Shown here: one piece after another, positions 2,015 to 41,670 of the stretch
Numbering within the stretch: position 1 is the stretch's first letter
Layout: the number at the start of each line of letters is the position of its first letter
Origin: Undaria pinnatifida
Taxonomy: Eukaryota > Sar > Phaeophyceae > Laminariales > Alariaceae
DNA length: 64,000 nt
Direction: 5' to 3'
Assembly (NCBI GenBank): GCA_012845835.1
Contig: JABAKD010000030.1
Coordinates: 13,487,076 to 13,551,075, forward strand
Position numbers and translations under genes: made by a program
Notes under the pieces: generated by a model
Seen by the model: the letters and a program-made list of their open reading frames with translations, nothing else
Told to the model about the DNA's origin: nothing
Databases searched by the model: none

Positions 2015-2265
2015 ATTCCACGGCCGTCAGATTCTGTCGCCCTCAAAAACGGGTTTTATAGTTTGCATGCACAAGTGGAGAACATCACGCTGTTGACCCT
2101 AGTACAAGCTACATGCTAGTTCTAAGGGGAGTCGCCGAGCCGACCTATATTCTTAATGAGGACACGAGGACACGCCCAGAAATACGCACGATTGGAGTAA
2201 CACACAGTTTGCAAAGATGAGTTTCGACGAAACCCTCGATCACACAGCTGGAGTGTATTTTAATT
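2015..2265 (+). repeat. Family A dispersed repeat, ~250-bp copy
   Basis: Contains the shared blocks of this family in order: CCTCAAAAACGGGTTTTATAG, then TGTTGACCCT, then GGGAGTCGCC, then a GAGGACAC stretch, then GCAAAGATGAGTTTCGAC, and the terminal CACAGCTGGAGTGTATTTT. The same blocks recur at about 15 places in the window in both orientations. Confidence 0.8.
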
Positions 2266-3180
2266 CTTCATTATAATATATACTATTAATAGTACATGAT
2301 ATCAATCTCACACCTGTAAAAAGAGGTTCTCACGCGTGAGAGGTGTGCCTTCTTTGACGAGCGAAGCGTGTTTGTTCATGATGCGGCCGCCTAAAACAGA
2401 GAGGCCTATTTCAAGCTGGGTGAGGATAGACATCCGCAGGTCCAACGGAAATGTCCGAAACAAACGTTGTTTTTTCTCTGCTTTCTGCGCTCCGCCAGCG
2501 CACCAAAGTTGACGAGAAATTGGTCCATCCTCCGGCGCAAGTTCCTAGCGCGAGCTATGTAATAGTATATACCCTATCTGGTTTATATGAGTACGTTGAA
2601 CATGCTGTTTTTCCCCGACTAACATTTGACCGAAAGCTTCATCTGTTTGGCTGGCTACAGGTCGGGCGAAAGCCGTGCCCCCCCCCCGGCCCCCCACCTG
2701 CGTGCTCGCGGATAGCATTATTGTAGTTAACGTGCGCTCATATCGTGAATCTGTTTCGAATGAACGCCACGAATATTTTATTTTCTCTATTTTTTTTTGC
2801 AGCGTAGCATAAGTTGTATCTTTTTGTGTGGCACACATGTTACAGTATAGGGAAGAGAGGGAGTATTCTTGGTTACGGTAGAAAGCAGTTACTGACTATT
2901 GTAGCTGTCTTTAGTTACATAATTCGGTATTTTTCGTGTGGCGATATCTCTCGTGTGCAAGTTTTTTATGTCAAGTGTGTTTTTTCCTTTCATGCTGTTT
3001 TTTCGGCGGGTTTTTGTTTTTCCCTCGCTGTCCTTGCGTGCTGTGTGTGACACCTGCCGTGTCGAAGATATGACCTCATGGCAAGGCCGAAAAAAACACA
3101 TGATATCACTCTGTTCTTGAATAAAAGTATCGTTTGGGTGTTCACATCAATGCCCAAACAATTCTTGAATTCCCGGACGG
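2266..3180. other. Intergenic DNA, no gene seen
   Basis: No open frame with coding character and no clear repeat except a pyrimidine run (2680-2700). T/G-rich stretches dominate 2840-3060. Confidence 0.5.
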
Positions 3181-3620: not shown

Positions 3621-3830
3621 ACAGTTTCCGCGCGCAGAACAAGGCTGAACGTCATAGTCCTGTTGACCCTGGCATTAGCAGGGGAATCACCGACCTGTAT
3701 CCTTCACGAGGGTACACACCCCGTAACAGGCGCGATCGAAGTATCACACGCAGCGTGCAAAGCTGAGTTTTGATCAAAAAATCATTTTTGGTCGATCTCA
3801 CACGAGCTGAAGTGTATTTTTTCATTTTTC
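3621..3830 (+). repeat. Family A dispersed repeat, diverged copy
   Basis: Order of blocks as in the other copies: GTTTCCGCGCGCAG, TGTTGACCCTG, CACCGACCTGTATCC, a GCGCGATCGAAGTATCACAC-like block, then GATCTCACACGAGCTGAAGTG. More diverged than most copies. Confidence 0.7.
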
Positions 3831-4420
3831 GAAAATATTCAAGTCACGGCACTTTTTGACGGTAGCTGTTTTAGCAGCTCTTGGTGAACGATGCTCGGCT
3901 AGTCCTACTTCAGGAGTGATCCCCTCGCCGCCGCCCCCCCCTCCCCGCGCTTATACTGCCTCCATCTTCTTGCTATATGCTGCGATAGCAGGTAGCATTG
4001 AGAGAAATATGTTGCAGCTGTAAACTAATACGTGCCTGTCCATGCGTCAACAACCAAGGAAGATCTACGTCACGATAATGCATCGTTACCTTGATAGTCT
4101 AGACTATCAGCCTAGTCTAGACCAGTCTAGAGTACTCTTGTAGAGTGGCGGAGGTTATTTCCATCCCCGTGCCGAGTCGATGGCCTATGTTGCACTGGAC
4201 TAGGCGAGCAAGGCTCGTTTAATATTTTATACCTTGTATTGTACCAAGGTATCTATATACAAGGCTATATACTTGTACAAGTGTCTATTTGTCAACAGTG
4301 CCCCTCGACCCCTCATGCCGATAAGGGGGGTCGGATCAGAGGCTATTTGCCATTTTAGCGTGCGCGTATTACGAATAAATACGAAGAAACTCACCCACAT
4401 AGTATATTACAAGTACCAAC
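3831..4420. other. Intergenic DNA with an 18-bp perfect palindrome
   Basis: TGATAGTCTAGACTATCA at 4092-4109 is a perfect inverted repeat and is followed by two more CTAGTCTAGA-type motifs (4112-4131). Related TAGACTAGAC motifs recur at about 16300-16370. Nothing else recognised. Confidence 0.5.
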
Positions 4421-4423
4421 AAC

Positions 4424-5092
4424 GCAGCTTGCAAAGATGACTATTGACCCGATATTCGTCGAACTCACGGCTGACGTCCTGAAAATATTTTTGTAAAAAA
4501 TAGTTTATTTTATGAACGCGCGCACGTTCGGTGGGGGCGGCGGGCGGAGAAAATTTCGGAGTTATAGGCAGGCCAGCAAACGATATTAGCATTGTCGGGG
4601 CCTGGTTTTTGTGTACCTGGTACACATTTTGTTTACTTTTTTTTGCCTTGTTGCGGAGGACGTACAGTAGTATATACCTGGTACATGGGTAGCGTGGTTG
4701 TCGTGGTATTGTTTTTTTGTTTTTTTTTGCTTCTACCCCTCCTTCCCCCCCCCCCCCCCCCTCCCCTCCCGTTCCCCGTCTGGCTTTGTTGCGAGGGGGG
4801 TAAGTGGCGTGGCTGTGTTGTGTTGTTTTCGTTTGGTTCCCCCCCGAGCAGCGAGAGTTTATGGTCATAGGACTACGGCCATGCACAAACTGAGTACACC
4901 TCCCCCCCCGCCCTTCTGGGGGACGGCGGTAGCTTTCAGGTGGTGGGAGAAGCAATGGAGCTTGTTCTAAACAATCGAGAGATCGCTTTCATTCGTTCTG
5001 AGAAGCATATGTAATGAAAAAATTTAAAATACACTCCAGCTGTGAGATCGAAACTCATCTCTGCAAGTTGTGTGTGATACTCCGCATGAAGC
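4424..5092. repeat. Paired family A arms in inverted orientation
   Basis: At 4424-4500 (+) there is a diverged arm (CGCAGCTTGCAAAGATGA, then TATTGACC, CGTCGAACTCACGGCTGAC). At about 5015-5088 (-) is a normal arm (ACACTCCAGCTGTGAGATCG, reversed). The 510 bp between holds a reversed copy of family C (4849-4915), T/C-rich runs and two TACCTGGTA motifs (near 4615 and 4676). Confidence 0.6.
4849..4915 (-). repeat. Family C dispersed repeat
   Basis: Reads on the minus strand as a G run, then GTGTACTCAGTTTGTGCATG, then GCCGTAGTCCTATGACCATA. The same sequence occurs at 24297 and 52027, each time right after a G run. Confidence 0.8.
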
Positions 5093-16560: not shown

Positions 16561-16865
16561 CGACGTACGTGTCGTACGTAGAGTATACCGGTAATAATGG
16601 ATCAATAAAAAAAAGGTGCAAAAAGATACAGCAAGCAGCAAGCAGGAGATAAATATCATCAAACATCGTGAAGAGGGGCAACAACAGCAGCAGCAGCGCT
16701 GATGATGAGTGATGTATCAGCTGCATCAGAAACTGCTGCTGCCATAGATAGACTAAAAAAAAAACAGGTACATCCGAGGCGCGCAAGCGCCAACGCTATG
16801 TGCACTCGACAGAGACACTTCACAAAAATCTCACCCTCCCCACCTTGCTTCGCGGCGGAAAATAA

Positions 16866-16950
16866 ATAACGCAGCTTTTTTTGCAAAGATGAGTATTGAC
16901 CTGAAATTCGTCAAACTCACGGCTGACGTCCTTGAAGATTAGTTATAAAA
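16866..16950 (+). repeat. Family A, variant arm
   Basis: ACGCAGC, then TTTGCAAAGATGAGTATTG, then ACCTGAAATTCGTC, then ACTCACGGCTGACGTCC. This is the same variant as at 4424 and 25978, but no partner arm was seen nearby. Confidence 0.7.
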
Positions 16951-17098
16951 TACTTCGAAGTATGTTTCTTTCTTGATGATGGGGTGGACGTCTCGGGGTT
17001 ATAGAAAATACCTGCTGCAGCTGTTAAACTTTACATCGATTAGCGCTGCTACTACTGCTTGTTGCTGTCGCTGCTGCTGTTCTCCTGCTGCTGGTCGC

Positions 17099-23940: not shown

Positions 23941-24026
23941 CTCACCCCTCACCCCTCACCCCTCACCCCTCACCCCTCACCCCTCACCCCTCACCCCTCA
24001 CCCCTCACCCCTCACCCCTCACCCCT
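23941..24026 (+). repeat. 7-bp tandem array (CTCACCC)n
   Basis: About twelve perfect units of CACCCCT/CTCACCC. It resembles a G/C-rich telomere-like or minisatellite repeat, but one strand is pure C/T/A and the unit is not a known telomere motif. Confidence 0.95.
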
Positions 24027-24530: not shown

Positions 24531-25977
24531 CGCGCGCACCAAGCGCGAAGCGCCGTGAGGTTTTCGGCGAGTCGCCTGAAGGGTGCACTGAATCCTACAA
24601 AGGCTACAAAGGGCCCTTTGTGGGGCGGATTTCGACCCCCCTGTGCGCACTTTCCTGGACATTAATATGACGGATTCATTCACAAATGGGTTAGGCTGCG
24701 GAGCACTTTTCACGGCCCATCATGTCAACGACTCAGATCCCTTCGCGCTTTTAATACCGTCCACCTACCCGTCCTACCTATTTTTCAGGAAGTTTTGAAG
24801 CCGTTGTGCTTTTTTAGTTCGCGAGATATATACACCACGCGCGCGGTAGGAAAGTTTTGTCATTCTGCGCCAAATATTTGACGGTAGCAGAGTACAGGGT
24901 CGCTCTCGCGTAAGCGGCCCGAGCTCGGCGGTGGAAAGGGGGGTACCCCGCCCCTTGCACCCTGGAAGGCGTTATGCGCGTGGGATAAAGGGATAGATCT
25001 ATAGGATCCGCAGTTTTTCAAACTGCTGCTTGCTGTGTTTTACCTGGTCTGGTGGTAATAATGTTGTATTTTTCGTTATTGAAAGGCCGTAGATTATACC
25101 ATTTCAAACACAATGAATGTCAATGCCACAATATTCTGACAAGGTTGCCGCTAAAAAGCGGGGGGTAGTTCTGCAGGGGGATCGGAACGCACTGGCAGGC
25201 AACAACACCAATCATCCGATAATAAAAGCGCTTTGTGCGTCAATGCCTACGCAGTAACCTATAATACTGCTGCAGGATAACGCGCAGGAAACGCCACAGA
25301 ATGTGGTGGCCTGGCCCACGACGTGTGGTTCCACTATTATGAAGTAATAATAATACGTGATACCTGGAACCTGATCCCGGGTGGTACATCATATTTGGCA
25401 GCCCAAAGGCTCGTGCCCTTTAGTTTGTACTTACTTGTGTCTGACGGACACGGAAGAAGACGTAAGAAGACGCGGGGACATATATATATATATGCAGACA
25501 CAGAGACGTCTGACCTGGTACTGCATACACACAGACCTGTGGCACGTCAAATATTACATCTGGTACGCACGTTGTTATCGTAATATGTGATCATCATTGA
25601 TCAGGTGGAGAAGAAGGAGGTACTTTCGTGTGCATGCACCTGTTCTCAGCTGCAGCATGCTGGTGCTGGACCATACTCCTCTTTCAATTCAGCCATGCGA
25701 CATGTGTGCGACTACAAGAAAATGACACATTATGTCATGTATATGTATATGCTACATGCTACATGCATAATGTAAGATTGCTTGCTGCTCATGATGCGTA
25801 CCCTCTTCTTGTGGTACTTTTCTTGCAGATACCACCATCCGCAGATAATCGGTGGTACTCCGGTACCAGGTATTTATTATAATATGATGATGGTATTTTT
25901 AAAAACATTGCGAGGTACAGAATATTACTCAGTGCGACAGGAATTGCGAAATACAAAATTTTATTACAAGTAAGTAC
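24531..25977. other. Intergenic DNA, no gene seen
   Basis: No supportable exon. 25440-25500 has an AGACGTAAGAAGACG duplication and a (TA)n run. TACCAGGTA occurs near 25863. Confidence 0.4.
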
Positions 25978-26147
25978 CAACAACAACGCAGCTTGCAAAG
26001 ATGAGTATTGACCTAAAATTCGTCGAACTCACGGCTGACGTCCTTGTAATATTTTTATAAAATATCGTGTTACTATCTTATTATGATGAAAAATCAAAAT
26101 ACACTCCAGCAGCTGTGAGATCGAAGATTTCGTCGAAACTCATCATA
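25978..26147. repeat. Compact inverted pair of family A arms
   Basis: Left arm (+) 25981-26060: the variant with GATGAGTATTGACC and CTCACGGCTGACGTCC. Right arm (-) about 26090-26143: the normal terminus, ACTCCAGCAGCTGTGAGATC reversed. Only about 30 bp lie between, so the two could form an imperfect hairpin. Confidence 0.7.
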
Positions 26148-26707
26148 ACAGCAGCTAGCTGGCGATAAATATAAAGTACTCGTAGTAGTATTGATTTACA
26201 CCACAGGCACGAAAAATAGGCACGCGAACGGTTAGCTTTTTTTCAGGAAAAGTTGTAGAACGACGAAAAGCGAGACAAAACCCCGACGGGTAAACTATTA
26301 ATAAAATCTGTCACTCACCACCAGCAGGTAGAAGAAGGTGGTAATAAGCTATCATACGTACAGCAAGTACAGCCATAACTATTCTACTTGCAGATAATAC
26401 TAATAGTAATAATACTGTTACTTTTTACGTACTATTAATATTAAATAGTGGCAGATTTTCGACGCGAATCGACGAGGGAAGATGGTGCTGAAATATTATC
26501 TCGCTATAAAAAGGAAGGCATGTACGTACCACACCGCACTTTGGGGAGGGGGGGGGAAGCGCCCGCTGTGTGATCCCGGATCTGAGTTACTTCTGGGAGG
26601 GGGCGCGAGAGCAGTGCGAGGACAATAAATATGGGAGGTATTTTATTTTTATAATATATAGTCTATATATTGAGGCATAATATTATATTAAATGTTATTC
26701 ATCATAG
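26148..26707. other. Intergenic DNA, no gene seen
   Basis: A/T-rich with short TAA/TAG runs; nothing recognised. Confidence 0.4.
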
Positions 26708-28025
26708 TGGTATAAAGGGGTGTATTCTTGATACGTACATCCGTCAGATTTCTCCCCTTCAAGGATGTATAGTTTACGCGCACATATTGAAGTGTCCCGC
26801 CCGCCCCCCGCCCACCGCCCCCCCCGACCCCTCTTGTTCAAACGCCCCACCTAAAATCGAAATCTGCCAGAGTAGTAAACACTACCAGCCAGCTGATATC
26901 ACCTCATTATGCCCCCCCCCCCCCCTCCCTTTTTCTTTTCCCGTTACCTCTTGTTCAAACGACCCATCTAAAATCGAAATCGGTCAGAGTAAAAAACACT
27001 TCTACGCAATTGATATCACGTCATTATCTTTCTAGTCATCCATGACGTAGCTTTTAATTCAATCCCCCCCCCGCCCCCCAACCCCCCCCCCCCCCGCCCC
27101 AACGCCCCCTCCTTCCCCACCACCCGCACGATCGCCTAGACCTAGCACCACGCGTACAGCAAGCCCCTACATATACGCGATCTAAATCTGTTAAAAAAAA
27201 CTTCCCCCCCTCCCCCCCCCGTCCCCCCGCCCCCCTCCATTTTTTTCCCCCGCTTCCTCTTGCTCAAACGCCCCACCTAACATCGAAATCACCTCATTAT
27301 CCTTCTAGAGCCACCCATGCCGCTGCTCCAATTCATGCCCCTCCCCCCCCCCCCAACGCCCCCTCTTTCCCCACCACCCGCACCATCACTTATTACCTAG
27401 ACCTAGCACCACGCGTATAGCAAACCCCTACATCTATGCGACCTAAAGCTGTTTAAAACACTTTTGCCCCGACCCCTCCCCCCCCCCACCCACCCACCCC
27501 CTCGAACACTCCGCCTTCTCCTCACCGATTGTACGACTTACAGGATATACATGATAGACTGATGCATTCCTTCCAAAACCGTCAGATTTATCCCCTTCAA
27601 CGATTTATACTTTCCATGCATAGATTTCGTTGCCCCGCCCGTCCCCCCACCCCCCCACCCCGCTCCCTCTTGTTCAAACCCATGCCCCCACGTTCTTCAA
27701 AACTCCGCCCTCCCCTCACCGGTTACACAATTTACAGGATACACTTGATAAACTGATGCGTTTCCTTCCACAGCTGTCAGATTTTGTCCCCCTCAAAAAC
27801 AGGTTTAATAGTTTCCGCGCACAGACTGAATAACATCACCCTGTTGACCATGCATGGTACAAGCTACACCGTAGTTCCAAGGGGAGTCGCCGACCTATAT
27901 CCTTAATGAGGACACACACCCAGTAATACGCGCGATCGGAGTATCGCACACAGCTCGCAAAGATGAGTTTCGACAAAACCTTCGATCTCACAGCTGGAGC
28001 GTATTTTTATTTTTATTTTTGAACT
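26708..28025 (+). repeat. Family A, long poly-C-bearing copy (~1.3 kb)
   Basis: Begins TATAAAGGGGTGT, then CCCCTTCAAGG and GCGCACATATTGAA, then an alternation of C runs (7-18 C's) with the block GAAATCTGCCAGAGTAGTAA, ACTACCAGC, TGATATCACCTCATTATC. It ends with the common 3' part: AGATTTTGTCCCCCTCAAAA, TGTTGACC, GGGAGTCGCCGACCTATATC, then GATGAGTTTCGACAAAACC and CACAGCTGGAGCGTATTTT. The copy at about 39110-40445 has the same order. Open frames in it are short and Pro-rich from the C runs; no protein domain was found. Confidence 0.8.
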
Positions 28026-28379
28026 ATTATGCCCCGGGGGAAGAAGCGAACCATTTATTTTTGTTCGGGTGAATGAAGCTCCTCTTGTTTGAGGAGTTCT
28101 ACTACTGATATTAATATTATTGTTCATAATACCTGGTGGTATATATGTAACAGAGCGCCAGAACAAGCGAAAATGAGACTGGCTACAATTAAAGATCCCT
28201 CACACCTCGTAATGACGAGGCTAAAAACGCCTCATCGCAAGACATACTACCCTATGAGAAAAGGAGCTCACAACCATGATGACAGCTCGAGAAACGAAGG
28301 GTATGTACCTACGCTATACCAGTAGCAATCGGCCTACCTCTCCCGAAATGTTACCTGGCGGAAAACAAAATAAGTGCCA

Positions 28380-29335
28380 TAATAACACACACGCACACAA
28401 AAACAACCCCCGTCCCCCCCCCCGCCCCCCCCTTCCCCTGCTGCCCCACCTAAAATCGAAAATCTGTCGAAGTAATAAACACTACCAGACAGATGATATC
28501 ACCTTATTACCTTTCCAGCCATCCATGCCGTAGCTCCAACTCATGTATTATAACTTTTCCCGCCTAGACCTAGCACCACACGTGTAGTAAGTTCCCACCA
28601 GGTATACATTTCTGCGGCCTAAAGCGGTTGGCATCCCCCCCCCCTCTCCCCGCCCGCCCCGCCCCCCCCGCCCCGCCGCCCCCGCCCCCTCCCCCGCCCC
28701 CTCCCCTCGAAAACTCCGGGATACAATAAACTGATGCATTCCTTCCGCAACCGTGAGATTTGACCCCTTAAGGGGTTTATGGTTTCCGCGCACAGATTGA
28801 GTTGCCCGCCCCCCCCCCCCCCCCCCCCTCCACCCCACCCCCCGCTCCCCCCTCCTATTCAACCTGTAAATTTATAGGATTTCCTAACTTTCCCGAATAT
28901 AAAACGCCAACCTCATCATACGAAACCCATCCAAATGATCTCAAATTCGGATAATTACAGGCCTTTCGAGGCCGTATCTTAACATACCCCCGCCGCCCCC
29001 CCCCCCTAAAAACCCGGTTCTCCCCTCACCGGTTATACGACTTACAGGATACCCTTGATGAACTAATGCGTTTCCTTCCACAGCTGTTAGAATTTTTTGT
29101 CCCCCTCAAAAACGGGTTTTATAGTTTCCGCGCACAGACTGACTAACATCACCCTGTTGACCCTGATAGCTACACTGTAGTTCCAAGGGCAGTCGCCGAC
29201 CTATTGTGTCTTTAATGAGGACACACACCCAGCAATACGCGCGACTGGAGTATCACACACAGCTTGCCAAGATAAGTTTCGATTAAATCTTCGATCTCAC
29301 AGCTGGATGGAGTGTCTTTTTATTTTTTCAAAAAT
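28380..29335 (+). repeat. Family A, second long copy, interrupted by an LTR piece
   Basis: Same blocks as the copy just to the left: C runs, GAAAATCTGTCGAAGTAATA, GATGATATCACC, the CCTAGACCTAGCACCA block, CCCCCTCAAAAACGGGTTTT, and the terminal CTCACAGCTGGATGGAGTG. A 105-bp fragment of the gypsy LTR lies within it at 28880-28984. Confidence 0.75.
28880..28984. mobile_element. Partial LTR of the Ty3/gypsy family seen at 59425-63340 (fossil)
   Basis: TTCCTAACTTTCCCGAATAT, then CCATCCAAATGATCTCAAAT and GGCCTTTCGAGGCCGTATC, ending TTAACA. This matches the right-hand part of the 270-bp LTRs with a few differences, so it is older than the complete pair. It is an incomplete solo remnant. Confidence 0.85.
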
Positions 29336-29404
29336 ATACCACTTCAAGCATATACCCGATGACCAATCCTATATGGTCTAAGTATATACGGAGTATATAA
29401 TATT

Positions 29405-29535
29405 ATGAAAATAAAAAATACACTCCAGCTGTGAGATCGAAAAAAATGTCGAAAGTCATCTTTGCAAGCTGTGTGTGATACTCCGATCGCGCGTATTATC
29501 GGTTATGTGTCCTCATTAAGAAAGACATATTTCAA
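29405..29535 (-). repeat. Family A, ~130-bp copy
   Basis: Starts at the common terminus (AATACACTCCAGCTGTGAGA on plus) and stops after GTGTCCTCATTAAG. Inverted relative to the copy ending at 29335, with about 70 bp between. Confidence 0.85.
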
Positions 29536-29697
29536 AGCAATACAATGAAATTCAGACGATTTGGGGTTAATACATATATAAGGAGGAGGATTAATTAACG
29601 AGCTCCGTCATCCACAAAACGTTTTGATCAACAACTAAGTAGATATACGATTACTCCTAGAACCTTCTGTCGCAGCATGATGATATCGTCATTATTT

Positions 29698-30133
29698 TGA
29701 AAATGAAAATACACTCCTCCAGCTGTGACATCGAACATTTTGTCGAAACTCATTTTTGCAAGCTGTGTGTGATACTCCGATCGCGCGTATTACGGGTTGT
29801 GTGTCCTCATTAAGGATATAGGTCGGCGACTCCCCTTGCAACTACAGCAGTGTAGCTATCAGAGGGTCAACAGGGTGATGTTGGTCAGTCTGTGCGCGGA
29901 AACTATAAAACCCGTTTCTGAGGGGGACAAAATCTGACAGCTGTGGAAGGTTATGCATCAGTTTATCAAGTGAATCCTGTAAGTCGAATAACCGGTGAGG
30001 GGAGGGCGGAGTTTTTAGGGACGTGGGGGCCTGGGTTTGATCAAGCGGGAGGAGGGGCGGGGGGCGGGGGGGGGGAGCAGCTTAATCTGTGGGTGTGGAA
30101 ACTATAAATCCTATCCTGTAAGTCGTACAACCA
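29698..30133 (-). repeat. Family A, ~435-bp copy
   Basis: Runs from the common terminus (ACACTCCTCCAGCTGTGAC) through GGTCGGCGACTCCCCTTG, AGGGTCAACAGGGTGATG, AACTATAAAACCCGTTTCTG and on into a G-run block ending at a CTGTAAGTCGTACAACC motif. Confidence 0.85.
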
Positions 30134-31270
30134 GTCGTCATTATGTAGTATTAATGGCGGGGTGAAGTTTTTTTTTTTTTTTTTTCATACATAGCAATTT
30201 TATGCTACACATACGTATTATTATTTTAGTATTAATAGTATGATATGTAAAATAATACACTCACTTGCTTGTAGCACTACTACTATTATTTACACGATGC
30301 TGTTACACATTGCTTTCGTCACTATTTACGGTGCGGCGGTATGGCGTATGATACATGTTTTTTTGTCAATTGCACACGGTCAGCGTCTAACACCATGCCA
30401 ACATTCATCATCAGTCATCATCATCAATTAGTCCCCTGTCCTTGGACACTAGTTATTGGTAATGACCCCATGCATGACGATGTGGCACATAATTCCTACC
30501 TATTCATTATTGTTTAGCATTAGACAAATTATTGTACCAGGTAACTGCCCTATTTTATTAGTCATTCTCGACTTCCCCCCCCCCGGGTTTGGATCTATGA
30601 TCCGGCGCGAGATACTAGCCGGCATTCGTTATTCATGGCGTAGTTTATTTCGTTGTGTGTTGTCAATTGCGATGCCAACGTCTACCAGAACGTGAGTGCC
30701 ACGTCAATCCATTCAGTCATCAGTCATCAAAATCCTCAACTTTGTCTTGTTGCTTAGCAAGGATTGTGGCTGGCGTAGTTGATACGTTGCGAATGAACCG
30801 TACACACGCGCCATCAATCACCCGCCACCCCATCCTCCTCCCGGCAGCCTTTATTACTTAATATATTCACGTCCAAGCACGACGTGTACCGTACGTCGTA
30901 ACGTGCAGATAATAAATACCATAACTATTAATAAGTTCCCGCGAATCAACCGACCGTTTATTTCAAAACCATCACCCTCCACAGGCAAAGGAGTCCTTCT
31001 ACGGTTGTAGCCCCCCTCAACCTTTCTTCGACGAAATCGCCGGTTTTGAAACCAGCTCCCGGCCGTACCTCCTGAAATACCGTGCCCCTTGCCACCCCGA
31101 CGTCATCGCTCAATAGTAGTAGTAGCAGTCCTTCCTTCGCAAACAACAAAACATATGGAGACTAGTTTTTCATAGCGCCGTTTCTCGTGTCGAGCAACCA
31201 TGAAACGTTCGTTGATCAAAATCGCTGGTTTGGGTGGGGGCTATCGTAGAATCAGTCAAAGGAAGGTGCT
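30134..31270. other. Intergenic DNA with a weak internal duplication
   Basis: A GTCAATTGC..GCCAAC..TCATCAGTCATCA series occurs at about 30366-30425 and again at about 30663-30735, with diverged flanks. No coding signal. TACCAGGTA at about 30536. Confidence 0.35.
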
Positions 31271-31273
31271 ACC

Positions 31274-31342
31274 TGGTGGTGGTGGTGGTGGTGGTGGTGG
31301 TGGTGGTGGTGGTGGTGGTGGTGGTGGTGGAGGTGGTGGTGC
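31274..31342 (+). repeat. (GGT)n microsatellite
   Basis: About 23 GGT triplets with one GGA interruption. Confidence 0.95.
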
Positions 31343-31354
31343 CAATCATACATA

Positions 31355-32240
31355 CATTACATTTCTTATTATGATATCGTGATGGGTTTGTTATAGTGTG
31401 GGGGGGGTGAGTTGAGGGGTCAAACAGCGGCCTCGTACAATAAATAGGCATGTTTCGCCTCCTCCTATATTTGAACAAGCTTGTTTTGCCTCCTGTTATA
31501 TTTTGGCATCATCTGCTGGTGCTGTTGTTGCTGTCATTTCAGCATTATTAATAGGATACCGTCCTTTTGGCGCGTCAATGCCGTCAATGCCGTCAATGCC
31601 TATCTATTCGGCAATGTTGTAGTGGTTTTTAGTGAACGGGAGAGGTCAGTCAAGGGCGCGTCACAAAAGGTCTATTTGGCATTTGCTTACCTGGTTTCAG
31701 TGAAGGGGAGAGGTCAGTCAAGGGGTCAAACCGCGGTGTCCTAGATAATATAATAACGTAGTTGTCTACAGGGGTCGTCATGTAGCCATCTTATTATTTT
31801 GATATCGTGATGGCTTTGATAGGGTAGGAGGGCGGTGAGTCGAGGGGTCGAACATCGGCCTCGTACAAGTACAATGCATTGGCATATGCCGCCTCCTCTT
31901 CTAACAAGCATGTTTTGCCTCCCACTGTAAGTAGGCATCTATCTGTCGTCATTCAGCATTACTATTAGGATACCGTGCTTTTTCGGCGCGTCAATGCCGT
32001 CAACGCCACTATCTATTCGGCAATGTTGTAGTGTGGCTTTACTGAAGGAGAGAGGTCAGTCAAGGGCGCGTCAAGGTCTATGTGGCATTGTTGTACGGGT
32101 TTTAGTATTGGGAGAGGTCAGTCAAGGGCGCGTCAAAGCCTAAGTCATTGTCTTACCGGTGTTCAGTGAAGGGTAGAGGTCAGTCAAGGGGTCAAACCGC
32201 GATCTCCTAGCATAATACGTAGTAGTTGTCCACATACACT
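31355..32240 (+). repeat. Two tandem ~430-460-bp units
   Basis: Copy 1 (about 31355-31780) and copy 2 (about 31781-32240) share GATATCGTGATGG, GAGGGGTC..CGGCCTCGTACAA, AGGATACCGT..GGCGCGTCAATGCCGTCAA, TCTATTCGGCAATGTTGTAG, repeated GAGGTCAGTCAAGGGCGCGT motifs, and an end of GGTCAAACCGCGGTCTCCTA type. Copy 2 has an extra GAGGTCAGTCAAGGGC unit, which explains the length difference. Confidence 0.8.
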
Positions 32241-33440
32241 GCTGCCGAAGTTCGGCCATTTATGTGACGCTTTCATTGAGGCAGGGGGCGGATAGGCAAG
32301 GGACTGCACCCCGGCATTCTACTACAACAGTAACACACTCGTTAGCAGCCGCCGCAATTGGCTTTAATATTTTTTTACTGTGTATATGTAGAGAGGTGTT
32401 AGTGTGTAGAGGGGGCGGTCATCCAGGGGGGCAAACCGCGGTCTCCTATTAGTCATGGCATATGCGGAGAACTTTTGTTTTTTTCAATAGCTTAGGGGGA
32501 CGGTCCTTCAAGGGGGTCAAACCGCCGCTGCCTGATGGCGTATGTGTGTATCCCCACTCCCCTGTTTGCGGCGTTATGATTCATAGCTAGGGTCCCCTCA
32601 TTTCCTAGCAGGCGTTGTTGCCCCCCCTGAATGAGATGAACCCGCCCCCTTCTTCCCAGACAACTTTGGGAGGGACAGCAAGTAAGCAATACAAGAGATA
32701 CGGGCTTAGTTTGGGTTCGTATAGGCAATTGCTTATACCCAAACTAAGCCTTTTATAACTTATGACCCCTCTCCCCCCCTAAAATCGCGGGATAGCAGGT
32801 CGGCCGGGGATATACGGGTGGACGTGTCCGTATCCAAGCGGTTTCATTGCTTGGGGATACCGGGGATATCATTTTTCAAGTTCGACATGCCATATGATGG
32901 GGAAAGCCTGAAAACGTTTATTGAATTGTGGATTGGTGGGATTCGAACACACGACCCCGAAAAAACATGGTTCTGCACCGACGACGCCATTTGTTAAGGA
33001 TTTAGCGGGGTATTAGAGTCCGTTTGACCACCTGCAAAAGGTTAACCAATTGCTTTTTACCCAAACTGAGCCTCATAGCACGAGTGAGCAGCACATAGTC
33101 TATTTGTCAGCCAGAGGCACCCCTGCCTAGTAGTAGTCAGCCCCTGGGTCCCCATATGAGTGCCAAATCTGACCACATTGGCGTCGTTGGCAGGACTGCC
33201 CACTCTTGCTACAACACTTGTTCGTCCACAGCTGGCGCAGTTAGAGCCTAAATATGCAGGCTTTACTGTACGGGCAGGCGTTTTTACTGCATTATATAGC
33301 GGCGGGGTCAGTCAGGTAGGGGTCAAACCGCGATCTCCTAGGCAAGGATCTCGTCCTCCCTCGTCGGCGCATTTGGCCTTAGCAATGTGATGGTTTCATG
33401 CTGTTAAGGGGGAGGTCAGTCAAGCGGTGAAACGCGGCTT
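32241..33440. repeat. Further scattered copies of the GTCAAACCGCGGTCTCCTA motif
   Basis: After the two big units the closing motif recurs alone at about 32428-32450, 32508-32530, 33319-33342 and, degraded, 33410-33435, each preceded by a purine-rich GGGGGCGGTCA-like stretch. The TIR element at 32703 lies among them. Confidence 0.6.
32703..33072. mobile_element. Small TIR element (MITE-like), 370 bp
   Basis: The left end GGCTTAGTTTGGGT is matched at the right by ACCCAAACTGAGCC (33059-33072), one mismatch. The left end also carries its own perfect inverted copy, ACCCAAACTAAGCC at 32737-32750, so it forms a 14-bp stem hairpin by itself. CAATTG lies inside both ends. No target duplication is evident and there is no transposase. 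Inside, on the minus strand at about 32935-32998, is a tRNA-like pair of pol III boxes (TGGCGTCGTCGG and GTGTTCGAATCCC). Confidence 0.55.
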
Positions 33441-33457
33441 CTTGTCGTTCGTTATTC

Positions 33458-33627
33458 TAAAAATTGAAAGTACACTCCAGCTGTGAGATCGAAGACTTCG
33501 TCGAAACTCATCTTTGCAAGCTGTGTGCGGTACTCTGATCGCGCGTATTACTGGGTGTGTGTCCTCATTAATGATATAGGTCGGCGACTCCCCTTGGAAC
33601 TAGAGTGTAGCTTGTACCAGGATATAC
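33458..33627 (-). repeat. Family A, ~170-bp copy
   Basis: Common terminus (AGTACACTCCAGCTGTGAGA on plus) through CTCATCTTTGCAAGCTGTGT and GGTCGGCGACTCCCCTTGGA, stopping near TAGCTTGTACCAGG. Confidence 0.9.
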
Positions 33628-33654
33628 ACGTATATTATGTACGTCCACACAGAT

Positions 33655-33686
<32 letters not shown>

Positions 33687-33687
33687 G
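33655..33687 (+). repeat. (AAC)n microsatellite
   Basis: Ten or eleven AAC triplets. Confidence 0.95.
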
Positions 33688-34271
33688 TGTTAGGTAGCGC
33701 AACTCGCAATGATAAGCTTAGAGTACAAAAGTACATTAGTACACGGGGAGTTCACAACAAACAGTAGTACAGCAAGAAGTCTTGAGAGTGCGAGTGGCGC
33801 CCAGCGTGCCTTCACAATCTCCACTAGCCGAAGGAACACGCGGCGGGTGGATGCAGACAAACACCAACCATGAGGCACCCCAACGAACTCAGTGAACAAC
33901 GAAAATGCACCCACAAAAAAGAACATGTACCGAACCGACCGGTGTCTATTCGTCGCACACGAAAGAGTTTGACAGCAGTCATTGTGCTAGTGATTAATAG
34001 TTGCTATAAATAAGTTTTACGGTAATGAAATAATAGCGGTGACCTAGACGGTAACACTATTAACAGAGGACGGTCGGTCAAATACATTATCGGCCTTCCA
34101 CGGAATCGCTCATACGCAACATTAAATATTACTCCGAGTATAAAAAATGAAAACACAGCTGGGCCAGGTGTGCCCAATGCTATCGCTTATACGACTATGA
34201 ATTACCGCATTGATCTGATTGGTCAAACTTCTTACGTACGTACAAAACCCATATTTTCTCATACTTCGATA
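33688..34271. other. Intergenic DNA, no gene seen
   Basis: Nothing recognised; short open frames only. Confidence 0.4.
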
Positions 34272-34346
34272 ATATTCTGCACACTCCAGCTGTGAGATCG
34301 AATATTTTGTCGAAAATCATCTTTGCAAGCTGTGTGTGATACATTA
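34272..34346 (-). repeat. Family A, ~75-bp copy
   Basis: Only the shared end is present: ACACTCCAGCTGTGAGATCG through CAAGCTGTGTGTGATAC. One of the shortest copies. Confidence 0.85.
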
Positions 34347-34663
34347 AATATACGAGTCTAATTCCCTGGTACCCGGTATGTGCGGAGTGTAGACTGCGGG
34401 TGGATAAAACCATCAGCTACGGATTGACATATTATATACGGTATACATATGCCAGGTACCGGTGATATAGCATGTGCCAGGCAATGTTTGCGAGGATACC
34501 AACAGGTATTTCAGGTAGTTACTACCACTCTACTACTACTGCTACTACTGTTAGTACTACTACTGTTACTAGGCTAGCAAGACATGTGATATACTCTGTG
34601 CATGCATGTTGGGTAGTAGTTGAGAAAGAATGACATGCGGTGTAGATTAGCTACGTAGTAGTG

Positions 34664-34990
34664 TAAGTCCGGTCGCCCCGGTGGCGTATCAGGTTATCCT
34701 CGAGCCTGGTATAGGTCAGTTTCGTGAGTTCGAGCCCCGCCGAGTGCATACTCGTATAAATTCGTTGGGACTTTTTCTTGTGGACAAATTGACTTGCGGA
34801 AAGCGCGAGAGCGTGAGTTAGCAACATTCGATGAACAATCGACGAGCAGTGGGATTGCTGAACCCTATGCGCGATAAAAATTGAAGGCAAGAACCGGGGA
34901 GGAGAAGGGATGACACCTGTGACCACGGCTTGTCCAGAAGCTGGAAAGTGAAAGTGTGCTAAAGAAAAAAAAAAAAAAAAAAAAAAAAAA
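34664..34990 (+). mobile_element. tRNA-like SINE with poly-A tail
   Basis: The head has a pol III box A-like TGGCGTATCAGG (about 34681) and box B-like GAGTTCGAGCC (about 34728), a spacing typical of tRNA genes and SINEs. The body has CGACGAGCAGTGGGATTG, GGAGAAGGGATGACAC, ACCACGGCTTGTCCAG and GCTAAAG, then 26 A's at 34965-34990. The body is shared with 49040-49396 and 3295-3475. The box B stem is imperfect, so this is not a functional tRNA. Confidence 0.65.
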
Positions 34991-35442
34991 GGTGCGGCAA
35001 TTTGGACTGGTTAGTATCACAGGCGGTGGGCTAAAATGCTAATGCACCCACCAGATATCGCTCGGCACTCGGCATCCATCTGCTGGCTACGTATGTACTG
35101 CTGTAAGTGAGTTACAAAATACCAGGTACGCCTCATGACACCGACAAATCATCCCTCTCTAATAATACAAATATACTACTCTTCCGATTCTTGTTCGTGA
35201 TGGCCGATCGGTCATGATATCATACGTTGATACCAAACGTCCTCATGACGTCCGCCACTATTTATCATTAATTAGTATCATTACGGTTCTGCATGTGTCG
35301 GAGGCCAAAGTATAAAAAAGAGCCAGCACAGCAGCAGGTCACTTGGTTGCGCATTCTTCTTCGTTCGGGAGAACTGTTCGCACGCAAAAACAAGCAGGGG
35401 CAGCAGCGAGTCGTATCGTTCGGGGTACTTCTGTATATTATA

Positions 35443-35520
35443 AAAATTAAAATACACTCCAGCTGTGAGATCGTTTTTTTTGTCGAAACTCATCTTCGCA
35501 AGCTGTGTGTGATACTCCGT
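35443..35520 (-). repeat. Family A, ~75-bp copy
   Basis: Shared terminus only (AATACACTCCAGCTGTGAGA on plus, ending GTGTGTGATACTCCG). Confidence 0.85.
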
Positions 35521-36767
35521 ACGTATTCCGTACGTATGTATATACGTATACAACCTCGGATATGGTTTCAGCCGCACCCAACAGGTACACCAAAACCCCC
35601 AAAACCACAAAAACGCCCTTTCCTATATTCTCAAGTCTCCAGCTCAGAATAGGAGCGAAGCGAACCCCTTCACCGAGGAGGTGATGCGAGTCAACGGTTA
35701 AAGATCGGGTCGTCACTAATGAACATAATAAAATCAGACCACCACCAATCACCACCACCGTGCACCATCAACCACCACCATCACCGCTATCCAGCTGCCG
35801 CTAACCATCACCACCACTCACTACGACCACCGACCACAATTAGGTGAAAAATTGCACTATATAATAATCACTCGCACTAAATCCAGTGCAGTGCTGCAGT
35901 AGCCCACCTATCAACACACATATCATATGCGACATCATACACCACCAGTTATAATCGCGCGTCGCGACTTACCATCGATATCACAGCCCAGGTGCGTGAG
36001 ATATTGAATACATCGCGGCATCGTCATTCCACAGGTATTTCATCACTAATCAAACAAAGGGTTTATAGAGAAACGCCTCCGCTGAAACCGCGAAAAGAAC
36101 TACAGGCCCAACGCTCACAAGCCTTGAAATACGGTCTCTTAAAAAACTCCGCCCCACCCATAGCAGCAGTACCTGCAGACTTTTTGTCCCTATGCCTGGT
36201 ATATGATACCTGGTGTGAGCTATGCTACGGTCTACGGCAAGAAAATTATCGCCGTCAAACCCATACGAGTACGACGTAGTACTAAAAACATATAATTTAG
36301 ATGTTATATAGTACCATTGTTAACATTAATAGTACTACTTGTATGTAAATTGTACCACACATCATGTGAAAACGCATACCTGGTACCTGGTACTAGGCAA
36401 CGTCACCAACCGACAAACAGAAACAATCGTAGCCCTGGTACACATTCAACTCCGCAGGGCAACTTCAACTCGCAAATTTCCAGCAGCAACAAACGCAGTA
36501 TAGCATCCGCGGCAGCAGTACTCTTGCGTCTACCACGCCCTACCCGCCGCCCCCACCATCACCCCTATCCTCAACCTCAACAGAGAAAACAAAAACGCAC
36601 CACACGTATGTATGTAGATATATAACACGACGGGATGCGTGCGAAATTCACCCTTTTTCGTGACCGCGGGCTACATTTCAGAGAAAACGAGCTCATGTGG
36701 GAACATCGCCATCCTCGATACGTACGTCTGTCTCCGACACAAAAAAGCGCCACGGTATCTTCCCGCT
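35521..36767. other. Intergenic DNA downstream of the ubiquitin-like gene
   Basis: CCA/ACC triplet-rich (35735-35840) and A/C-rich on plus, i.e. T/G-rich on the sense strand of the gene to the right, consistent with a 3' flank. Two overlapping TACCTGGTA motifs lie at about 36378-36394. No gene supported. Confidence 0.35.
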
Positions 36768-37604
36768 CTAACTCCAATCCACCACCGGAACAACATCTCT
36801 CTGGCGGTTGAAAAGGTCCAGACTCCCCGCCGTTTCATCATCCCGCAAAACTCTGCCACCCAAGGTCAAGCTTACCCGGTCCAACGGCAGCACTCCGGAC
36901 CGCGGCTGCCGTGCAATCTCCCGGCGGAGCTCCGCCACAGTACTCCCCTCCCTCAAATCCGTTCTCACAAAAAACCCAGAGGCTCCCTCCGGTACATACA
37001 GCTGAAATCTCCAAGAAGCGGGAATGCGCGCGCGTTTCTCCGAAACGCCATCCAGGGGGAGTACAACTTCCAGCCCGGGGGGTACGCTCTGCCACGGGTG
37101 CACGCGCTGCCACTCATACGAGGGCACAAACTCTTCCCTTGCAACGGTGTCAAGCTGTGTGTTCGCTTTGGGCGACAGCTTTGACCAGTCCACGACCGCA
37201 ACGAGCTCCCTCTGACGATTGAACAGGTCCAACCCGCCCACCGTCTCATCATCCCGAAGAACATTTCCATCAAGCGTTAAGGTCGCGCGGTCCAACGGCA
37301 GCACTCCAAACCGCGGCTGTTGCGCAACCTCCCGGCGGAGCTCCCCCACCGTGCTATGTTCCCTCAAATCTGTCCTCACGAAAAACCCGGGATGTTCGCT
37401 CCCCTCCCCCCCCCCCGGTACATACAGCTGAAGTCTCCAGAAAGGAGGGATGCGCGCGCGGGTCTCCGAAAAGCCATCCAGGGGCAGTACAACTTCCAGC
37501 CCCGGGGGTACGCTCTGCCACGGGTAGACGCGTTGCCACTGATACGACGGTAAAAAATCGTCTCGCGCAACGACCGCAAGGTCTGTAGTTGATACGGGCG
37601 ACAT
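36768..37604 (-). CDS. Protein of two tandem ubiquitin-like units
   Basis: From ATG at 37604 to TAG at 36768, 278 residues. It consists almost wholly of two copies of one ~138-residue unit (residues 2-143 and 144-278) about 75% alike by eye. Each unit has FxPSYxWQRVxPWQSVPPGL, EVVLPLDG and RARIP, then a ubiquitin-like fold: a first strand (WRLQLYVP), a second strand (GFFVRTDLRE), a helix (TVGELRREVAQQ) and a closing LTLDGNVLRDDETVGGLDLF. That last motif aligns with the LIFAGKQLEDGRTL region of ubiquitin. No C-terminal Gly-Gly is present, so it is not a conjugated modifier; a binding or scaffold role is an inference. The frame is open 20 codons further up to a GTG at 37664, so an upstream exon joining at CCTTCCAG|G (near 37665) is possible. 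The name of the front half of the unit is unknown to me. Confidence 0.7.
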   Translation of the reverse strand: MSPVSTTDLAVVARDDFLPSYQWQRVYPWQSVPPGLEVVLPLDGFSETRARIPPFWRLQLYVPGGGEGSEHPGFFVRTDLREHSTVGELRREVAQQPRFGVLPLDRATLTLDGNVLRDDETVGGLDLFNRQRELVAVVDWSKLSPKANTQLDTVAREEFVPSYEWQRVHPWQSVPPGLEVVLPLDGVSEKRARIPASWRFQLYVPEGASGFFVRTDLREGSTVAELRREIARQPRSGVLPLDRVSLTLGGRVLRDDETAGSLDLFNRQRDVVPVVDWS

Positions 37605-38640
37605 GAGGGTAGGGGTGTTGGCGCCTTTTCCGGGCTCTGCCCGCGCAACGACGGCCGCTGACACCCTGGAAGGCGGTAGCCGGTTTCACACGCAAAGGGG
37701 GGAGGGGGTGTGCATAAGAGGGGTGCGCGGTCGGCACAAGGCGATGGTTGCGAAAAAAGAGCGCGTCAGGGCTGTTACTACAGCCGGGAGCAGCTGAGGC
37801 AATAATATTACTCCACAGCTGATTGTTGCGTAAACTCAGTAGCAGGCAGCGTGAACATGCTGAGAAGCGGGCGTGGGGGCGCTATGCACTCGTACGTACC
37901 AGGTGTACATGCACATGTAGTTTGTAGGGGTTGGCCCGCTAGAATGTTGCTAAAAAGACACGCCCGAAGACACGCCCAGACAAGGTGCGCATTGCCCTGC
38001 AAGAGCGCGTACGCTGCCCGTCCCCGCTCTCCACACGCCCCTGCCCAGCATCAATACACTTGGAAAACCCCCCAACACGCTTTTCATGGACAAGGTGGTC
38101 GCAGGTGGTGTTTATCTCTGGCCCAATCGCATTTCCGCGATAGAATATAGATTGAACGATGTTAGAGGTGTTGCCGGAAACAGGAAAAGTAGGTTCAAAC
38201 ATGCGAACGGCGATGGCGCCGGTACGATGCTGCTGCAGCAGGGGCGTGGAGTTTGTAAAGACCCACAACAACAGCGCCCCCGGGGGTGTGATCTACTCAC
38301 CAACTAATTGGTGCGGCCTCAGCAGCACAAAACAAGAATCAATGAACACTCCGTTGGCGAGTCAGCCAAGGTTCGGGGCTGCAATTTCTGACATCCTGGT
38401 AATGTGAATGTGAATGTGAATGTGAGTGTTGTGAATGTGAATGTGAACGTGAACGTTGTCAATGTAACGGCTGAGCTCAAGTCCGGAACTAGAGGTTTCT
38501 AGTCCTAAAGTCTGGTCATTTCACGAGTATACTTGCAGGACAAGCGCACAGGCTTGTTGGTCGCAATGCGCCAACGAACGTCTTCGAAATCATGTTTCGG
38601 GTGATGATGGATGATGATGGATGATGATGTCTCACGCTAG
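37605..38640. other. 5' flank of the ubiquitin-like gene
   Basis: 37939-38271 (-) has an open frame of moderately protein-like composition, but no splice partner was found. At 38402-38460 is a (GTGAAT)n-type hexamer array. Otherwise nothing. Confidence 0.3.
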
Positions 38641-38930
38641 GAGCTCAGAAAATTCTTGGAATATGCTGCACCCCAAGCACGGGATGGCTCTGACCCCTGC
38701 TTTCAGAACTGCGACGCGTGCTATGGTATGGTATAGGTATACCCCTTTTGGGCTAAAGTACATTCTGGATGACCGGGCCCACTCCTTAACCCTCCCTAGC
38801 CCCAAATGGTCTAAATGTCAGGCTTGTTCTGGGACATGACTGTTTTGCGCACCTCGGCCGTGGGTTTGTTCATCGGATTGCCCTTTCAGTGTACTCAAAG
38901 GAAGGTTTGTGGTGAGGTATATCATGTATA
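38640..38930 (+). repeat. Family R dispersed repeat, diverged
   Basis: GGTATACCCCTTTTGGGCTA, then GACCGGGCCCACTCCTTAAC, then TGGGTTTGTTCATCGGATTG. The same order is seen at 63640-63790, and in part at 23315-23400. Confidence 0.6.
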
Positions 38931-39109
38931 CCATGTACATCATGTCTATAATGTAGATGATGTGTACCTATCGATTGAAACATCCTATCTTTCGATCCAT
39001 GTACAATAACAAATTATGAAGCTTTTAACACGTTGTTTACTACACCCAAGAACTGGGTTGCATACGACATGTACCATCAAACCTTCTAGAAAAATAAACA
39101 TTACCAGGC

Positions 39110-40445
39110 GGGTGATATAAAGGGGTGTCTTCTTGCTGCAACCGCCATATTCGTCCCCTTCAAGGGTTTATAGTTTCCGCGCACATATTGAAATGCTCGC
39201 CCCCCCGCCCCCGCCCCCCCCGATCCCTCTTGTTTAAACGCACCACCTGAAATCAAAATCTGCCAGAGTAGTGAACACTACCAGCCAGCTGATATCATCT
39301 CATTATCCATCTAGCCATCCATGCCGTAGCTCCAACTCATCTCCGCCCGCCCCCCCCCCCCCCTCCCCTTTGTTCCCCGCCCAGTTCGTTCAAACGCCCC
39401 ACTTACAATCGAAATCGGCCAGAGTAATAAACACTTCTAAGCAATTGATACCACGTCATTATCTTTCTAGCCATCCATGACGTAGCTTTCATTCATCCCC
39501 CCTCCCCCCCTCCAACGCCCCCTCCTTCCCAACACCCCGCACGATCGCCTAGACCCAGCACCGCGCGTATAGCAAGCCCCTACATGTATGATTAATACGC
39601 GCGATCGGAGGATCACACACAATGTTGCGAACATCAGTGTCGATCAAATCCTTGATTTTAATATTATATGTGACCTCAACCTCTTGAAAACCCTTCCCCC
39701 CCCCCCCCCCCACCGCCTTTTTTTTCTTTTTTTCTTCTTTTTTTTCTTCCCTCGCTTCCTTTTGCTTAAACGCCCCACCTACTATCGAAATCCGCCAGAG
39801 TAATAAACACTTCCACGCCCTGGATATCGCCTCGTTATCGTTTCAGAGCCGTCCATGCCGCTGCTGCAATTCCCACCCACCCCCGTCCCCAACGCCCTCT
39901 CCTTCCCCACCACCCGCACCATCGCCTAGACCTAGCACCCCGCGTATAGCAAACCCCTACATCTATGCGACCTAAAGCCCTCCCCCCCGCCCCCGCCCCC
40001 CCCCCGGCACATTCCCCCCCCCTCCTCTACAAAAAATATTTATAGTTTCGACGCACAAATTGACCTGCCCCACCCGTCCCCTCCCCCCCCCTCCCCCCCC
40101 TCCCGCCCCCCTTTTGATCAAAACCAGGCCCCCACGTCCTTAAAAACTCCGCCCTCCCCTCACCGGATATTCGACTTGCAGGATTCACTTGATAAACTGA
40201 TGCATTTCCTTTCAAAGCTGTCAGATTTTGTCCCCCTCAGAAACGGGTTTTATAGTTTCCGCGCACAGACTGCCTAACATCACCCTGTTGACCCTGATAG
40301 CTACACTGTAGTTGCAAGGGGAGTCGCCGACCTATATCCCTAATGAAGACACACAATTACGCGCGATCGGAGTATCACACACAGCTTGCAAAGATGAGTT
40401 TCGACAAAATCTGCGATCTCACAGCTGGAGTGTATTATAATTTTT
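39110..40445 (+). repeat. Family A, long poly-C-bearing copy (~1.34 kb)
   Basis: Begins ATATAAAGGGGTGT as at 26708. Three copies of the inner block (AGAGTAATAAACACTTC, GATATCACGTCATTATC-like, CATCCATGCCGTAGC) are separated by C runs, then come the shared 3' part and the terminus CTCACAGCTGGAGTGTATT. With 26708-28025 it defines the full length of the family. No coding frame. Confidence 0.8.
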
Positions 40446-41044
40446 ATAATATCATGTATACATCTCCACCTCAACTGGCGAAGAGTCTCAGAAAGCAAAC
40501 GGTGCACCTCCAACGCAGCATGTGCCTGTCCTGCACTCGTGTTGTCGGACACAAAAGTACCTTGAATCGGTGTAACATAAACTTAGCAGCGGTAAAACGA
40601 GTATTAATGATGACCATATTTTACCAATCGTTTATTGTCGGTAAAGCACGCAGTGCTACTAAGCCCGTACTATAAAAATAGTTCTCTGCAGCTTACACCG
40701 GCCATAAATTAATCATTTTATATACCCTGCACCAGCCTTAGTCTGCCTTCACGAAGTTCGTATTATCAATACCAGATTTCTACGCCTTACACCTGCCTCT
40801 ATACATGTTGTACTATACTGCTAAGAGTTTTACACCTGCCTTTGTGAGCACGTGGCGAACGCAGAGAGTTGTTCGCCTAAATAAGCCGACTTTACGTCGA
40901 CGGTCGCAATTTTGTTTCGTTTTTGTTCCATTTTGGTTGTGTATCGTGGATTACTGACTACCTATTTCTAACACTCCGTCGTATCGTGCCTAATAAAATC
41001 AATTTCAATATTGGAGCGCAAATCTACTGCACAGATATTACAAG
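40446..41044. other. Intergenic DNA, no gene seen
   Basis: ATTGGAGCGCAAATCTACT at about 41011 recurs at about 41312 on the other side of the next repeat copy, so that copy may sit inside a duplicated segment. Nothing else. Confidence 0.4.
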
Positions 41045-41275
41045 AAGAAAAAATACACTCCTCTCCAGCTGTGAGATCGAAGATTTCGTCGAAACTCATA
41101 TTTGTAAGCTGTGTGTAATACTCCGATCGCGCGTATTACTGCGTGTGTGTCCTCATGAATGATACAGGTCGGCGACTCCCCCTGGAACTACAACGTAGCT
41201 TGTACCAGGGTCAACAGGGTGATGTTAACCAATCTGTGCGTGGAAACTATAAAATCTGTTTCTGAGGGCTATTAT
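41045..41275 (-). repeat. Family A, ~230-bp copy
   Basis: Shared terminus (AATACACTCCTCTCCAGCTG on plus) through GGTCGGCGACTCCCCCTGGA, GGTCAACAGGGTGATG and AACTATAAAATCTGTTTCTG, then stops. ATTGGAGCGCAAATCTACT flanks it on both sides. Confidence 0.9.
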
Positions 41276-41407
41276 GTTCACGCTTTCATGCATGTACTCT
41301 CAAACTTTTTAATTGGAGCGCAAATCTACTATGATAGCAGACATTACATTAACCCTTCAGAAATCCACTCCAACTTTTGAATCAGAGCGCAAATGTGCTA
41401 CCTGGCA

Positions 41408-41610: not shown

Positions 41611-41670
41611 CAATGCATACTGTAATGCGTACTGTAATGCATACTGTGATGCATACTGTAATGCATACTG
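41602..41670 (+). repeat. 12-bp tandem array
   Basis: ATGCATACTGTA is repeated five to six times with single-base changes, starting at the right end of the small transposon. Confidence 0.85.

Follow-up and report, generated by a model that had tools for sequence, protein, structure and literature searches.

The window, i.e., the whole stretch of DNA analysed here, comprises 64,000 nucleotides of the brown alga Undaria pinnatifida and is part (contig C38:13487076-13551075) of a genome of 511,146,479 bases in 68 contigs. Dispersed over it are copies of a repeat, family A, which share one fixed end, the 3' end, and stop at different points on the other side. From 16 copies, a covariance model was built for the terminal 68 nt of the element; it matched 17 places in the window, corresponding to 13 copies of family A, 3 copies of a second family (B) and 1 weak nested fragment. 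The same copies, in both orientations, were recovered by BLAST of two long copies against the window and, poly-C matches aside, this comparison gave no body fragment in the window that is unlinked to a 3' end. With up to 3 mismatches allowed, CTCACAGCTGGAGTGTATTTT has 7 matches in the window vs 0 expected (100 shuffles). Family A is probably a non-coding, non-autonomous retrotransposon that depends on a long interspersed nuclear element (LINE) and inserts by target-primed reverse transcription.

With the fixed end taken as the 3' end, long copies consist of one to three abc(d) units and one or two ef units, after which come g and h; an additional f precedes the module series, joined in one copy by b. 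Poly-C runs separate the modules. The copies in the window are the following:

38963..40447, plus strand: longest window copy of family A (39110 copy), b-f-abc-abcd-(nested fragment)-abcd-f-ef-g-h with T-rich tail; 5' limit approximate (38953-38978)
39593..39656, plus strand: nested g-h fragment within the 39110 copy, weak (model match at 39609, E=0.15)
40371..40438, plus strand: h, the 3' core, within the 39110 copy; a bulged hairpin is predicted, with CAGCU..AGCUG around UGAG..CUCA, followed by the T-rich tail
26707..28021, plus strand: long family A copy, f-ab-abcd-abcd-ef-ef-g-h, tail TATTTTTATTTTTATTTTT; 5' end shorter than in the longest copy
28414..29333, plus strand: long family A copy (28996 copy), interrupted at 28881-28985 by a piece of a long terminal repeat (LTR)
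29696..30134, minus strand: 5'-truncated copy e-f-ef-g-h between two exact 10-bp repeats of ATAATGACGA (29686-29695 and 30135-30144), a candidate target duplication
2016..2281, plus strand: 5'-truncated copy f-g-h, found by BLAST and covariance model
3640..3823, plus strand: diverged 5'-truncated copy g-h; 5' limit approximate
5010..5084, minus strand: 5'-truncated copy h, upper hairpin deleted
26080..26144, minus strand: 5'-truncated copy, the shortest of all, facing a family B copy tail-to-tail
29405..29520, minus strand: 5'-truncated copy, tail-to-tail with the 28996 copy
33453..33621, minus strand: 5'-truncated copy, found by BLAST and covariance model
34281..34342, minus strand: 5'-truncated copy ending at GTGT, without T-rich tail
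35435..35525, minus strand: 5'-truncated copy with imperfect candidate target duplication (11/14 identical); 5' limit approximate
41045..41268, minus strand: 5'-truncated copy inside another local repeat
25972..26068, plus strand: family B copy, upstream sequence different from A, 3' core the same (model match at 25983)
4411..4504, plus strand: family B copy (model match at 4412)
16865..16952, plus strand: family B copy (model match at 16861)

With the 5' BLAST limit as start and the final core base as end, the 13 family A copies are 49 to 1476 nt long, and they have 12 or 13 distinct starts, since copies 5010 and 35435 share a start at the consensus word CGGAGTATC (BLAST). In the case of the 39110 copy, homology to two loci outside the window, L037 and L051, reaches upstream to 38953-38978, which gives a length of about 1.49 kb. 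Modules a-d and e-f of the 28996 copy are situated at 28443-28800 and are parted from the remainder by the LTR piece of 105 bp. An earlier note on this DNA, made from the letters of the stretch, had counted at least 13 copies in both orientations, nearly all with one common end, in agreement with both searches. Its statement of varied lengths holds as well, except for the range of 75-1340 bp. Of the two copies it put at about 1.3 kb, the one at 26708 keeps this length, whereas the 39110 copy is longer and starts elsewhere; the 435-bp copy it placed at 29698 was found again with slightly different limits, part of its interior being absent. Copies face each other tail-to-tail, with spacings from a few to 75 bp, at 25972-26144 and 28996-29520 of the window and also at locus L025. 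The 41045 copy is surrounded by a different dispersed or tandem repeat (TTGGAGCGCAAATCTAC; window 41000-41400).

Beyond the window, a genome search in which the best 40 of 386 first-look candidates were scored listed 41 matches of 95-100% identity, including one 25-nt piece, and yielded at least 30 loci, one of which is the 39110 copy itself. Copies close to the query, with 98-99% identity over 83 nt, are those at L004, L005, L011, L018 and L019. In 26 of 30 loci, homology between loci ends at locus positions 1597-1619, just beyond the tail; on the 5' side, by contrast, it ends at scattered points. Exceptions to the common 3' stop are L010, where a second copy adjoins, and L025-L027, which form a segmental duplication. 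A sample chosen without regard to the 3' end, 20 stretches of 10 kb spaced evenly along contigs C36 and C38 (200 kb), gave a similar picture: 16 out of 23 family A fragments reach the 3' end, 3 lack it, 2 are cut by the end of the stretch and 2 have the next fragment on the same strand within 100 bp. Two fixed ends were not found, as the 5' ends vary among window copies, loci and sampled stretches alike. In the same 200 kb, the core model gave 30 matches at E<=0.1, some of them partial or weak, i.e., about one per 7 kb, and family A fragments add up to 10.3 kb in these samples from two contigs. If this density held genome-wide, tens of thousands of copies would be present.

The fixed end is made up of a core of about 60 nt and a T-rich tail, with a second T-run after GTGTATTTT. 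Tail and following sequence were counted for 47 copies, including 9 from the sampled stretches and leaving aside L003, L026, L027 and the window copies 34281 and 3640. A run of at least 4 T occurs in 47/47 tails vs 11/47 in the control, and the motif A[TC]A[AG]TA follows within 32 nt in 33/47 copies vs 4/47 in the control. The second ten bases after CAGCTGGA are 93% AT, whereas beyond thirty the AT content is 55-57%.

Target duplications were recognised at a few copies. L008 and L021 are flanked on both sides by exact 18-nt duplications of the type TTTT(T)ATAAT..., and L005 probably carries a 12-nt target duplication AATATATTTAGT if two nested inserts and a further 9-12 bases or so are allowed for. 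A permutation test of duplications over 28 loci gave p=0.0046. Because L026 and L027 are almost the same as L025 through segmental duplication, they were kept out of this test and of the wide search, which the 39110 copy entered as L003. Where the duplication is clear, the T-run and ATAATA are at least partly derived from the target. Furthermore, in L008 and L012 a newer copy is located head-to-tail directly behind an older one, and the two neighbours differ inside the element, so that these pairs more likely arose by renewed insertion at one motif than by recent tandem duplication. A target-duplication candidate at 39110 (CATGTA) was withdrawn since this copy proved longer. In L005, at oriented positions of about 1163-1475, the A copy contains an insert that by eye resembles a tRNA-derived short interspersed nuclear element (SINE; GTGGCGTATCAG...GAGTTCGAGCCCCGC, A-rich end), with a B-box-like word at 2 mismatches.

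These observations bear on a Helitron-like or other DNA transposon whose copies were later trimmed by deletion. The absence of coding sequence and of poly-A and a hairpin near one end would suit such an element, but in the loci compared one end alone is fixed, that end is T-rich, and target duplications flank a few truncated copies; as the 5' ends are scattered, a common inverted repeat is impossible, a point that comes from the scatter and not from a separate inverted-repeat search. We regard this origin as highly improbable. Later deletion as the cause of truncation, which the earlier note had named as a possible objection, is argued against in those few copies by the duplications at their very edges and may account for individual copies among the others, where no duplication was recognised; its other objection, a set of copies with two fixed ends and thus a plain DNA transposon, was not seen among the copies compared. 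Its proposal that one fixed end with ragged truncation marks insertion primed by reverse transcription is supported by the loci, the sampled fragments, the few duplications and the common tail with its motif.

The core is common to several families. Family B copies carry 100-125 nt of upstream sequence of their own, absent from A, in front of the same core, and family C, which is known only as short copies, has yet another upstream sequence; about 60 nt are common to A, B and C. In the D and E copies, the core is more distant. A similar fold is predicted for A, B, C and L001, with CAGCU/AGCUG, UGAG(U)/(A)CUCA and UCGA/UCGA pairs and a bulge UGCAAAGA. Except for one E copy, which is predicted to keep the inner hairpin only, this fold is not shared by the D and E copies: D lacks it and the other E copy folds otherwise. 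Pairing in the core structure amounts to 82.4% vs 20-33% in slid controls, and in an alignment of 67 matches fitted to the model (62 distinct rows) the covariation score exceeds all 500 shuffles. A core hairpin is thus likely, not proven, because pairing is well conserved and covariation weak.

Conservation of the core could also stem from a code for the C-terminus of a LINE protein instead of an RNA signal. One frame is indeed open through the core in A, B and C, where by eye length differences are multiples of three. In L001 and in the D and E copies, by contrast, loop lengths judged by eye break the frame, and two frames, of one copy each, had no protein match within the length limits applied: for one, no candidate with three shared words was obtained, and for the other, none of 14 candidates reached E<=1. 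A coding core is accordingly thought quite unlikely.

L001 (JALZUP010000106.1), filed under a Robiginitomaculum metagenome-assembled genome, is the sole match in bacterial genomes and carries a B/C-like core at the contig end. It probably represents eukaryotic (algal) contamination of the bacterial genome set, judging from the core it has in common with the algal copies and from a long frame for which Pfam gave no match. Viral contigs gave 0 matches in three scans, and a fourth produced L002 alone, in which the core is not visible by eye.

The body upstream of the core offers little coding capacity. None of four long copies contains a long coding frame, their longest stop-to-stop frames being 113-136 aa. 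Only three of the copies compared reach the region of 38953-38978, and pairwise comparison of w39 with each of L051 and L037 places the end of homology within about 25 bp, which hints, as far as sequence comparison goes, at a true 5' end near 38953-38978. An alternative is that the 1.3-1.5 kb sequence represents the long 3' untranslated region (UTR) of an autonomous LINE, that its copies are 5'-truncated and that B and C are other LINEs or derivatives. Ragged 5' ends and a common tail fit such an element equally well, and the small number of copies that extend so far leaves room for longer versions. The short frames and the repeated non-coding modules of the body speak against it, as does the stop of homology, which is a hint of a real 5' end and no proof of one; overall, a long 3' UTR appears rather unlikely.

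A true SINE, composed of an RNA polymerase III (pol III) head derived from tRNA, 5S or 7SL and a LINE tail, would account for the tail common to several families. Words resembling an A box (at most 1 mismatch) are present in long copies, one of them perfect and situated at the start of the 26708 copy, but a pattern as loose as this would be expected to yield such words. The two long copies tested contain no B box even with 2 mismatches allowed, no tRNA gene was found in the window, and Rfam gave only four weak matches in window 24000-42000, all below the gathering score. Taken together with a body of up to about 1.5 kb, this makes a true SINE extremely unlikely. No A-tail was found on family A copies. 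The earlier note had likewise reported neither pol III promoter nor coding frame nor A-tail, which stands with the addition of the A-box-like words. Among the origins it offered, a SINE/LINE tail fits best, a Helitron-like end does not, and "something new" applies at the level of the family alone. The idea of a hammerhead ribozyme, as carried by Penelope-like elements and retrozymes, was dropped, as the Rfam scan of window 24000-42000, read up to E=5, gave no hammerhead. A body of modules bounded by poly-C is unusual, and we infer an RNA polymerase II (pol II) promoter in the tandem 5' modules.

In the search for a partner, a scan of the window for motifs like those of reverse transcriptase (RT) gave only FSDDF in a 46-aa frame, and three RT-motif matches upstream of cores are unlike RT by eye. 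A 172-aa frame with YVDDF is located at L043:7747-8265 on the minus strand, and a core on that strand lies about 5 kb downstream of it; the frame has no Pfam match up to E=1 and perhaps belongs to a retroelement of another class.

Several results weigh against the interpretation of family A as a LINE-dependent retrotransposon with a conserved 3' signal. Motif scans of the window and of sequence upstream of cores turned up no autonomous LINE that ends in this way. Most copies have no recognisable target duplication, the duplication test on the 16 window copies alone gave p=0.28, and in the wide search only 4/40 exceeded their own controls, one of them through a plain T-run; the L005 duplication was read by eye and needs the two nested inserts and the extra bases. 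Part of the motif enrichment may be due to composition, because the control region has 55-57% AT vs 76-93% in the tail region. With regard to the hairpin, the 16-sequence alignment showed no covariation beyond shuffles, a slid control in the model-fitted alignment of 67 matches has 25 two-sided changes vs 16 in the structure, and the fold energies of A are ordinary (z about -1.2).

For family A as a LINE-dependent retrotransposon, the following course is proposed. The RNA would end in the core, possibly as a bulged hairpin, and a U-rich tail, and its 3' end would be recognised by a LINE-encoded endonuclease/reverse transcriptase. LINE proteins of the stringent type bind a stem-loop of their own 3' tail (PMC4176376). 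The enzyme would nick AT-rich DNA, preferably at sites resembling (T)n-ATAATA, the tail would anneal to the nicked strand, and the RNA would be copied from its 3' end, mostly halting early. The RNA intermediate, the recognition by a LINE enzyme, the motif as target preference and a LINE of the RTE/RTE-X type are what we infer. SINE/LINE pairs with common tails are most frequent for the CR1 and RTE clades (PMC3747384). It is tempting to speculate further, though more doubtful than not, that a single conserved hairpin at the RNA 3' end, with a bulge of 8 nt, serves to mobilise several non-coding families (A, B, C and perhaps D and E), which then re-insert at the motif left next to each insertion (T-run + ATAATA), A being the largest parasite, with a pol II promoter of poly-C-bounded tandem modules in place of a pol III head. 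Such re-insertion would explain the head-to-tail and tail-to-tail nests.

Other features of the window are a GNAT protein encoded at 54407-56158 on the minus strand, with 73% identity to a Laminaria digitata protein and 49-59% to proteins of Ectocarpus, Scytosiphon and Hapterophycus, a perfect array of 12 CTCACCC units at 23941-24026, and, at 36771-37685, a frame that contains an internal repeat and matches the ubiquitin family (PF00240). An LTR element at 59425-63340 has identical 270-bp LTRs and an integrase frame (PF00665) and shows no RT-like motif in open reading frames of at least 45 aa; it is possibly young and without its own RT. The 105-bp piece within the 28996 copy matches its LTR at 95%.

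A published description of family A was not found in a literature search, repeat libraries lying outside the comparison, and family A appears to be new as a family only, its kind being already known. Points of interest are the tandem-module body, the abundance and the sharing of one tail by several families. Tandem 5' modules are known from the monomer arrays in the 5' UTRs of LINEs, e.g., of mouse L1, but the modules of family A are bounded by poly-C and no open reading frame follows them. Most families of transposable elements in Ectocarpus, and hence in brown algae, are said to stay unclassified (PMC12477816); with the fixed end read as a LINE-type 3' tail, a large part of what is unclassified becomes a class open to testing, and the 60-nt core provides a handle for the autonomous partner and for sister families across kelps.

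Among LINE-tailed elements, the stringent-tail SINEs, e.g., tobacco TS with an RTE tail, resemble family A in a shared 3' end of similar size, T-rich or other short terminal repeats and a stem-loop in the tail, but carry a pol III head, which family A lacks (PMC3747384). The same paper describes RTESINE1, MAR4, RTE1-N1_LA and Bov-A2 as RTE derivatives assembled from LINE 5' and 3' ends. Like A, these have a LINE tail without tRNA head; unlike A, whose 5' part was not traced to a LINE, they are mammalian and their 5' part is LINE-derived (PMC3747384). The most abundant single family of Ectocarpus is non-autonomous, about 600 bp long and of unknown 5' origin, with a 3' end matching autonomous RTE-X LINEs (PMC12477816). 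This family, RTEX-N1_Ec32, is grouped with LINEs there because a pol III promoter was not shown. Compared by description and not by sequence, it differs from family A in its length (about 600 bp vs up to about 1.5 kb) and in its known autonomous RTE-X partners with the same 3' end, such a partner of family A not having been found. RTEX-N1_Ec32 and similar Ectocarpus families share with family A the brown algal host, the non-autonomous nature, the very high abundance and the unknown 5' origin, and the LINE-type families of Ectocarpus are often 5'-truncated as well (PMC12477816). By analogy, the best reading is that family A would work like RTEX-N1 of Ectocarpus and its LINE-tailed relatives.

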